In this document: positions 14,580 to 39,297 of the stretch, in pieces | How positions within the stretch are numbered: the stretch's first letter is position 1 | How the letters are laid out: the number at the start of each line of letters is the position of its first letter | Assembly (NCBI GenBank): GCA_024689505.1 | Contig: JAILDJ010000177.1 | Coordinates: 1 to 64,000, forward strand | Source: Clostridiales bacterium | GTDB taxonomy: Bacteria > Bacillota > Clostridia > Lachnospirales > Bianqueaceae | Reading direction: 5' to 3' | Length of the DNA: 64,000 nucleotides | The notes under the pieces: generated by a model | What the model saw: only the letters and a program-made list of their open reading frames with translations | The model's database searches: none | What the model was told of the DNA's origin: nothing | Made by a program: the position numbers and the translations under genes

Positions 14580-14653
14580 TAGGGATGAAAGGGCTCGAAC
14601 CTTCGACTTCTACGATGTGAACGTAGCGCTCTGACCAACTGAGCTACATCCCC
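14580..14653 (-). tRNA. tRNA-Val (anticodon CAC)
   Basis: Reverse strand GGGGATGTAGCTCAGTTGGTCAGAGCGCTACG-TTCACAT-CGTAG...GGTTCGAGCC...CATCCCTA; cloverleaf folds; CCA not encoded. Confidence 0.93.
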
Positions 14654-14674
14654 AGGAGATAAACAATCATAACC

Positions 14675-14757
14675 GAAGCGCTGCCCACAGCGCTTCTCCC
14701 CCGACACTCGGACTCTCGCAATTCCACTACCGTTTCATTGCTTCGTCCTCGTTTCGG
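14675..14757 (-). other. Candidate structured RNA element between tRNA-Val genes (GA-core hairpin plus second hairpin)
   Basis: Reverse strand CCGAAACGAGGACGAAGCAAT..ATTGCGAGAGTCCGAGTGTCGG followed by GAAGCGCTGTGGGCAGCGCTTC; shares core with 38826-39029 repeats. Confidence 0.55.
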
Positions 14758-14761
14758 CAGC

Positions 14762-14823
14762 GAATCGTAAACTCTTCAGTTCTCGCTCTTGCAAGCAAAG
14801 CTCGAACCAAGAGTTTCCGATTC
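14762..14823 (-). other. Long hairpin between tRNA-Val genes
   Basis: gaatcgtaaactctt ... aagagtttccgattc, 14/15 complementary arms. Confidence 0.6.
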
Positions 14824-14839
14824 TTGGTTATAAAAAAAG

Positions 14840-14913
14840 TGGAACTAAATGGACTCGAACCATCGGCCTCTACGATGTCAACGTAGCGCTCTAACCAACT
14901 GAGCTATAGTTCC
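14840..14913 (-). tRNA. tRNA-Val (anticodon GAC)
   Basis: Reverse strand GGAACTATAGCTCAGTTGGTTAGAGCGCTACG-TTGACAT-CGTAG...GGTTCGAGTCC...TAGTTCCA. Confidence 0.93.
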
Positions 14914-37213: not shown

Positions 37214-38746
37214 ATGAAACTCGCATTGCTCATCTTGTACTTTGGCGTGATGGTCGCCATCGGTCTCTACTGTCGTAAGAACGCGACGGACGTCAACGGA
37301 TTCGTCCTTGGCGGTCGTTCCGTCGGTCCTTGGCTTACTGCTTTCGCTTACGGCACTTCTTATTTCTCTGCTGTCGTATTCGTTGGCTACGCAGGACAGT
37401 TCGGCTGGAAATATGGCATCGCCGCGACTTGGGCCGGGATCGGTAATGCGATCATTGGCTCCCTGATGGCTTGGGTCATCCTTGGCCGCCGCACGCGCAT
37501 CATGACGCAGCATCTGGATTCCGCAACCATGCCGGAATTCTTCGGCCGCCGCTTCTCCAGCAACACTCTGAAGATCGTGTCTTCTGTCATCATCTTCATT
37601 TTCCTGATCCCCTATACCGCTTCTCTGTATAATGGTCTGTCTCGTCTGTTCGGTATGGCTTTCCATATCGACTACTCTGTCTGCATCATCCTGATGGCTG
37701 TGCTGACCGCCATCTACGTCATCGCCGGTGGTTACATGGCTACCGCCATCAATGACTTCATCCAGGGCATGATCATGCTCGTAGGTATCGTAGCCGTCAT
37801 CGCCGCTGTCATCGGCAGCAAGGGCGGTCTGATCGAGGCCATGAACGGCCTGGCTGCCGTACAGGACGAAACCGTCTCCACCACGCCCGGTATCTTCAAC
37901 TCCTTCCTGGGCCCGGATCCATTGAATCTATTGTTCGTCGTCATACTGACTTCCCTGGGTACCTGGGGTCTGCCGCAGATGGTCCAGAAGTTCTATGCGA
38001 TCAAAGATGAAGGCTCCATCAAAAAGGGTACCGTCATCTCCACAATTTTCGCGATCGTCGTTGCTGGTGGCTGCTACTTCCTTGGTGGTTTCGGCCGTCT
38101 GTTCTCTGATAAGATCGATATCGCGAAGAATGGTTTCGACTCTGTCATCCCGACCATGCTGGAAGGTCTCTCACCCTTCATGCTGGCTCTGGTCGTGATC
38201 CTGGTCCTCTCCGCTTCCATGTCCACCCTGTCTTCTCTGGTCATGACGTCCAGCTCCACCTTGACGATCGACTTCATCAAGGGTCAGTTCGTCAAAGACA
38301 TGGATGACAAGAAACAGGTCCTGTTGATCCGTATCCTGATCGTTGTATTCATCGCGATCTCTTCCATCATCGCACTTGTCCAGTACAAGAGCAAGGTTAC
38401 TTTCATCGCGCAGCTGATGGGTATTTCCTGGGGCGCTTTGGCCGGTTCCTTCCTGGCTCCTTTCCTGTACTCCCTGTACTGGAAACGTACCACCGAGCTT
38501 TCCTGCTGGGTCTGCTTCGTGTTTGGTTCCGTTCTGATGGTCGTAGATATGCTCAGACCGGCACTTCTGCCCGTATGGATGCGTTCCCCGATCGTCTGCG
38601 GCGCTATGGCTATGCTGCTGGGTCTCGTCATCGTCCCCATCGTCAGCCTGTTCTCCAAAGCACCTGACCGTATGTTCGTAGACGATTGCTTCGCCTGCTA
38701 CGAAAAACCCACCGTTGTCGAACAAAAGACAGCCCTGGGAAAGTGA
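37214..38746 (+). CDS. Sodium:solute symporter family protein
   Basis: FVLGGRSVGPWLTAFAYGTSYFSAVVFVGYAGQFGWKYG, ATAINDFIQGMIM, LSASMSTLSSLVMTSSSTLTIDF; 510 aa. Confidence 0.93.
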   Translation: MKLALLILYFGVMVAIGLYCRKNATDVNGFVLGGRSVGPWLTAFAYGTSYFSAVVFVGYAGQFGWKYGIAATWAGIGNAIIGSLMAWVILGRRTRIMTQHLDSATMPEFFGRRFSSNTLKIVSSVIIFIFLIPYTASLYNGLSRLFGMAFHIDYSVCIILMAVLTAIYVIAGGYMATAINDFIQGMIMLVGIVAVIAAVIGSKGGLIEAMNGLAAVQDETVSTTPGIFNSFLGPDPLNLLFVVILTSLGTWGLPQMVQKFYAIKDEGSIKKGTVISTIFAIVVAGGCYFLGGFGRLFSDKIDIAKNGFDSVIPTMLEGLSPFMLALVVILVLSASMSTLSSLVMTSSSTLTIDFIKGQFVKDMDDKKQVLLIRILIVVFIAISSIIALVQYKSKVTFIAQLMGISWGALAGSFLAPFLYSLYWKRTTELSCWVCFVFGSVLMVVDMLRPALLPVWMRSPIVCGAMAMLLGLVIVPIVSLFSKAPDRMFVDDCFACYEKPTVVEQKTALGK

Positions 38747-38752
38747 TAAAAA

Positions 38753-38825
38753 GCGTTCTAAAGTCAAATACAGCCGTGGAAGCACATTTATGCGCTGACA
38801 CGGCTTTATTTGACCTTAAGAACGC
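38753..38825. repeat. Long hairpin downstream of SSS symporter gene (terminator-like on reverse strand)
   Basis: gcgttct..gtcaaata.agccgtg / cacggct.tatttgac..agaacgc. Confidence 0.75.
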
Positions 38826-38917
38826 AAAAAACACGAGGACGTAGTGCGAAGCATGAGAGTCCGAGTGTTTTCAGGGAGCCGGGAGTGCTGTAAGCACGAA
38901 GGCTCCCGTTTTTATCA
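38826..38917 (+). repeat. 92-nt structured repeat, copy 1
   Basis: aaaaaacacgaggacgtagtgcgaagcatgagagtccgagtgttttcagggagccgggagtgctgtaagcacgaaggctcccgtttttatca. Confidence 0.9.
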
Positions 38918-38937
38918 AAACACAACTTTATGGATAC

Positions 38938-39029
38938 AAAAAACACGAGGACGCAGTGCAAAGCACGAGAGTCCGAGTGTTTTCAGGGAGCCGGGAGTGC
39001 TGTAAGCACGAAGGCTCCCGTTTTTATCA
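38938..39029 (+). repeat. 92-nt structured repeat, copy 2
   Basis: Only a few substitutions from copy 1, all in or next to the inner hairpin. Confidence 0.9.
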
Positions 39030-39297
39030 GGACACTATCATATTTATGCGTCTTTTCTTTGATTTTGGATCGTCTATTGGATCAAAAATCATTCTTTTAA
39101 TGATCGATCTGGATCCATCCAGAAAAACAGTGGATATAATTCCAAGGATCCCTTAAGACTGATCCAATCCATGGATCAAATACCCCTGATTTGATTCAAA
39201 GCATCCATTTGCTGAAGGATCATGGTGGATACAATGATGAAAAACTCTCATATTTGATCCATCACACATGAGCAAACCCGCAGCTTGACCGCTCTCT

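Follow-up and report, generated by a model that had tools for sequence, protein, structure and literature searches.

The window, a stretch of 64,000 nt from a Clostridiales bacterium (contig JAILDJ010000177.1), carries behind a sodium:solute symporter gene two structured repeats, which are one complete and one 5′-truncated copy of the Rfam family RF01699 (Table 1). The two near-identical 92-nt units described in the first-pass annotation (38826–38917 and 38938–39029, 20 nt apart) were recovered; they differ at three positions (89/92 identical), and their hairpins I and II fold as drawn there. The repeats are real, but the unit as drawn covers just the 3′ portion of an element with its true start at 38744, P1 and P2 having been left out. 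A difference between the units in the inner stem, described as preserving pairing, does keep the pair (G–U versus G–C), but the change is one-sided. The first three bases of the P1 5′ arm are the UGA stop codon of the symporter reading frame, and the GTTTTTATCA at the end of the unit forms the 3′ arm of P1. A GUUUUU follows P4, and the neighbour downstream is a convergent gene.

Table 1. Features of the RF01699 copies in the window and genes lying downstream of copies at other loci.
Feature	Position	Strand	Remarks
Sodium:solute symporter gene, host gene of the element	37214–38746	+	PF00474, E = 9.6e-57
Unit 1, complete RF01699 (Clostridiales-1) element	38744–38917	+	Four-way junction P1-P2-P3-P4; cmscan 90.5 bits, E = 4.6e-21, model positions 1–166 of 166
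P1 5′ arm UGAUAAAAA	38744–38752	+	Pairs with 38909–38917 in the minimum-energy fold
P2, long hairpin	38753–38825	+	cmscan match and fold
P3 (hairpin I of the first-pass annotation)	38828–38871	+	Fold; covariation
P4 (hairpin II of the first-pass annotation)	38874–38907	+	Fold; covariation
P1 3′ arm UUUUUAUCA, complementary to the stop-codon arm	38909–38917	+	Fold; swap test over 36 stop-anchored loci
Unit 2: P3, P4 and identical P1 3′ arm (39021–39029)	38938–39029	+	Without P2 and without its own P1 5′ arm
RF01699 copy between two tRNA-Val genes	14668–14832	-	57.3 bits; starts just after a T-run; orthologues in two congeneric species
Gene downstream of element: rplF after rpsH	+37		
Gene downstream of element: smpB after rnr	+23		
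Gene downstream of element: ribF after truB	+23		
Gene downstream of element: rplJ after rplA	+241		
Gene downstream of element: ABC permease after binding protein	+93		
Gene downstream of element: atpF after atpB			A short atpE presumably sits between atpB and atpF

The full RNA (38741–38920) folds with -86 kcal/mol, compared with -42.9 ± 4.2 kcal/mol in shuffled sequences (z = -10.25); for unit 2 the z value is -5.5. The whole-window Rfam scan at the gathering threshold returned the minus-strand copy, and unit 1 was obtained from a scan of the local stretch together with the genome search. Unit 1 is a full-length member: its match spans the whole model, and its score is well above the gathering cut-off (48 bits). 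Unit 2 alone is not a complete member: it gave no separate match, P2 and the P1 5′ arm being absent. The additional copy suspected at 14675–14757 proved to be part of the minus-strand match. On that strand, within 14580–14913, the flanking tRNA-Val genes have the anticodons CAC and GAC, and the same arrangement is found in two congeneric species.

The Rfam match means that the window element belongs to a known family and is not a new RNA. RF01699 is the Clostridiales-1 RNA of Weinberg et al. (2010), reported from Clostridiales and the human gut and, in the part of that report available here, judged to be probably an RNA, not cis-regulatory and not a riboswitch (PMC2864571). The portion of its text that was searched gives no function for Clostridiales-1 and mentions neither mobility nor stop codons (PMC2864571). 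A literature search for a function of RF01699 returned no paper. The family is thus already known as an unexplained Rfam RNA; what appear to be new here are its mobility in relatives and its anchoring on stop codons in the genus of the window.

The first-pass annotation had proposed a conserved structured RNA exceeding what a simple terminator needs, and had made this depend on further copies and on covariation. Both were found. RF01699 matches number 18 in the same genome and occur in 15 of 58 related genomes and in 92 of 392 genomes sampled from the order. Across 38 diverse members, 97.9% of the pairs in P3, P4 and the P2 tip are standard (71.2% in shuffles and <39% in slid alignments), and two-sided changes are seen in 24 of these 25 pairs; within the genus of the window they are seen in ten of the 11 P3 pairs. 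G–U exceeds A–C in the stems across the family (19 versus 3), pointing to the sense strand as the RNA. At three loci (L088, L060 and L061) and their orthologues the P2 sequence can differ almost entirely while P3 and P4 stay 85–93% identical, which suggests that P2 may be exchanged or may evolve much faster than P3 and P4.

The mobility of the family in relatives is a feature that could not be seen from the window alone. Three amplified genomes hold 111, 93 and 70 matches. In G381 at least 93 copies, 94–100% identical, lie at unrelated loci and span TGATACCAGGGTCAAAAGGT to ACCTTTTGACCCCTACATCA, about 30 nt past the Rfam model. They carry terminal inverted repeats (TGATACCAGGGTCAAAAGGT versus TGATGTAGGGGTCAAAAGGT, read inward from both ends; TGAT...ATCA), and 5-bp repeats, among them TTATA, TTACA and TTCTA, border them on both sides. 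A 5-bp target duplication was found at 47 of 98 copies, compared with 3.8 expected when flanks were swapped. At L356:11623–11809 the site is empty in the congeners G394 and G392 (ATTATATTGC, with a single TTATA) and filled in G381 (ATTATA-element-TTATATTGC). Tandem copies have another copy of the target sequence between them, and a Butyrivibrio fibrisolvens plasmid carries RF01699 copies, one with an AAATA duplication. At the family level RF01699 is short, non-coding and high in copy number with near-identical copies, as is expected of a miniature element, and where it is amplified we are confident in describing it as a miniature transposable element of about 150–200 bp. TG...CA ends with a 5-bp duplication would presumably fit retroviral-integrase-like transposases. 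A search of three genomes for the end pattern gave no autonomous transposase flanked by RF01699 ends, and none of the rve transposases inspected as a possible partner had these ends.

Two further arrangements were noted in G381. In a head-to-tail array (L349; C4:37397–37842) each copy has its P1 arm region in common with the next, giving a period of 146 bp versus 154 bp, unlike the arrays with target repeats between copies. There are also places where the right end TGATGTNGGGGTCAAAA is present and the RF01699 core is missing (e.g. C40:5934–5971 and C17:16294–17913), once as a 38-bp palindrome, so that a smaller mobile palindrome sharing this end probably exists.

The copies in the genus of the window are few and divergent, occupy the same loci between species, are sense-oriented and begin at the upstream stop codon or directly after a T-run. 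Among the 42 loci from four species of this genus, left ends lie close to the 3′ end of a co-directional coding sequence (-9 to +13 nt) at 22 and right ends at none (Fisher, 1e-8); gene calls came from a simple ORF rule, so that single distances may be off, and the left–right contrast uses one rule on both sides. A T-run lies just before the left end at 12 of the 42 loci and beyond the right end at one. Host genes are of many kinds, often central ones (groEL twice, rplL, rplA, rpsH, ssb, atpB, rnr, truB and transporters). Pairing of the stop-codon region with the 3′ end of the element was scored at 36 stop-anchored loci: the best helix averaged 16.8 versus 10.5 with swapped partners, and none of 2000 swaps reached the observed mean (p < 0.0005). 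When the helix was limited to the last coding bases and the stop codon the means were 10.7 and 8.4, again with 0/2000 swaps. In this genus a 5-nt repeat flanks only 3/42 loci and there are no clear target duplications; for this reason we infer the descent of these copies from the mobile form by homology. This counts against the reading preferred below, as does the failure to find an autonomous transposase. The window copies are likely to be old retained relatives of the mobile form.

The reading that we prefer, at a probability of about 0.55, is that the repeats are an old, retained mobile element with a predicted effect in cis on the mRNA. The old copies would have been retained because their sense-strand RNA structure acts from the 3′ UTR or between cistrons, most likely on the processing or stability of the upstream mRNA. 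By analogy, the long duplex of P2 would suit RNase III and the four-way junction may block 3′ exonucleases; termination at the stop codon would bring a ribosome into P1 and open it. Copies directly after a T-run count against this reading, since only read-through would transcribe them. A stricter version, which we consider doubtful, is an RNA gated by translation termination: since the stop codon itself is one strand of the closing helix, the ribosome would open P1 at each termination and refold the junction, upstream translation would be coupled either to the processing of its own mRNA or to how the following gene is expressed, and tandem units with identical P1 3′ arms would compete for the single stop-codon arm.

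A purely selfish or neutral mobile element, tolerated at gene ends where it does least harm and with no cellular function, is a possible but less probable account. It agrees with the mobility in relatives and with the A/T-richness of stop codons and T-runs, which resembles that of the 5-bp targets, and the young G381 copies do not have the G–U excess over A–C (28 versus 24), so that sense-RNA selection after insertion is not apparent there. What it leaves unexplained is the orientation bias of the left and right ends described above, which is absent from the amplified genomes, where proximity to a coding-sequence end is found for 12 left and six right ends of 98, a difference that is not significant. 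Base composition was ruled out as the cause of the stop-codon position: genome G057 is low in GC, at the level of the amplified genomes (0.43), yet seven of its ten copies are stop-anchored. The neutral account is also at odds with the orthologous loci, where the fold is kept between species despite sequence change, at identities of 65–100% (65–97% at loci other than the symporter).

That the copies form a family of trans-acting small RNA genes with their own promoters is improbable. The Rfam type label (Gene; sRNA) and the 2010 verdict of 'probably RNA, not cis-regulatory' (PMC2864571) are in line with it, as are copies that follow terminators or tRNAs. The 5′ ends, however, lie on stop codons within coding DNA, and the copies are too diverse in sequence to have a target site in common; what they share is limited to the fold and short internal-loop motifs. 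Sigma-70-like promoters just upstream of amplified copies numbered 8 versus 4.2 expected, which is not significant; on the same count, insertion behind promoters, striking in a few G349 copies, was set aside.

The first-pass annotation had also suggested bidirectional termination between convergent genes. This would suit the window itself, with its GUUUUU after P4 and its convergent neighbour, as well as G002, where a plain terminator occupies this place, and the features of an intrinsic terminator are present locally, not across the RF01699 family. As a general role it is highly improbable: the U-tract is absent from many copies, the U-run is the P1 3′ arm, and other copies lie inside rpsH-rplF, atpB-atpF, rplA-rplJ, rnr-smpB and truB-ribF, with the next start codon 23–434 nt downstream, so that termination there would cut essential operons. 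A riboswitch or 5′ leader regulator was rejected as the copies follow unrelated genes (groEL, rplL, ssb, atpB, transporters) of no consistent class, a sponge for a CsrA-type RNA-binding protein as the GGA lies within a stem that changes sequence with compensation, and type III toxin–antitoxin RNA repeats as the loci are dispersed with no partner gene.

Several bacterial repeats resemble the cis-acting element that we favour. The REP sequences of Escherichia coli are structured extragenic repeats at gene 3′ ends, often close to stop codons; they differ in being palindromes of 20–40 bp without such a junction, and we know of no pairing between them and the stop codon. Their degradation is helped by RNase R (PMC12320835). 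ERIC and YPAL/RU-2 of enterobacteria are, like RF01699, miniature mobile repeats with stable RNA folds; they measure 127–168 bp and are co-transcribed with their neighbours, and ERIC has been proposed to change the stability of the upstream transcript in an orientation-dependent manner (PMC2229807). They are unrelated to RF01699 in sequence and taxon, fold into a single long hairpin where RF01699 has a four-way junction, and differ at their ends, ERIC having TA termini and YPAL duplications of 3 to 26 bp (PMC2229807). Correia/NEMIS of Neisseria is likewise a miniature element with inverted repeats, and its transcript is a proposed RNase III substrate; it has TA at its termini and an unrelated sequence, and the available part of the source describes no stop-codon anchoring (PMC2229807).

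A family listed as a small RNA since 2010, its function unexplained, thus behaves as a mobile element over part of its distribution. Its copy numbers and tandem arrays are explained by this mobility, and caution is advised against taking every conserved fold for a dedicated small-RNA gene. In the genus of the window the fold is fixed where essential genes end, its closing helix including the stop codon, which makes a link between translation termination and mRNA fate directly testable.

The symporter locus varies among close relatives. The sister species G001 has two full tandem copies; the second copy in the window has lost P2. In G003 all that is left after the stop codon is a P2-like hairpin, and G002 has its stop at the same codon position with a plain terminator following it. 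The P2-only remnant in G003 (L236), directly behind the stop, resembles a terminator, which suggests that RF01699 elements may decay into, or replace, ordinary terminators. In keeping with retention, unit 1 is 100% identical between G000 and G001, compared with ~87% in the surrounding coding DNA; because the high identity extends into the downstream spacer (~98%), recent recombination at this locus is possible. After the element, at 39050–39270, lies a second intergenic repeat family made up of short palindromes (TTGATCCAT...ATGGATCAA, flanked by TATCCA/TGGATA); it too is ~98% identical between two species with coding DNA at ~87%, and more of its copies are present at the G003 locus.
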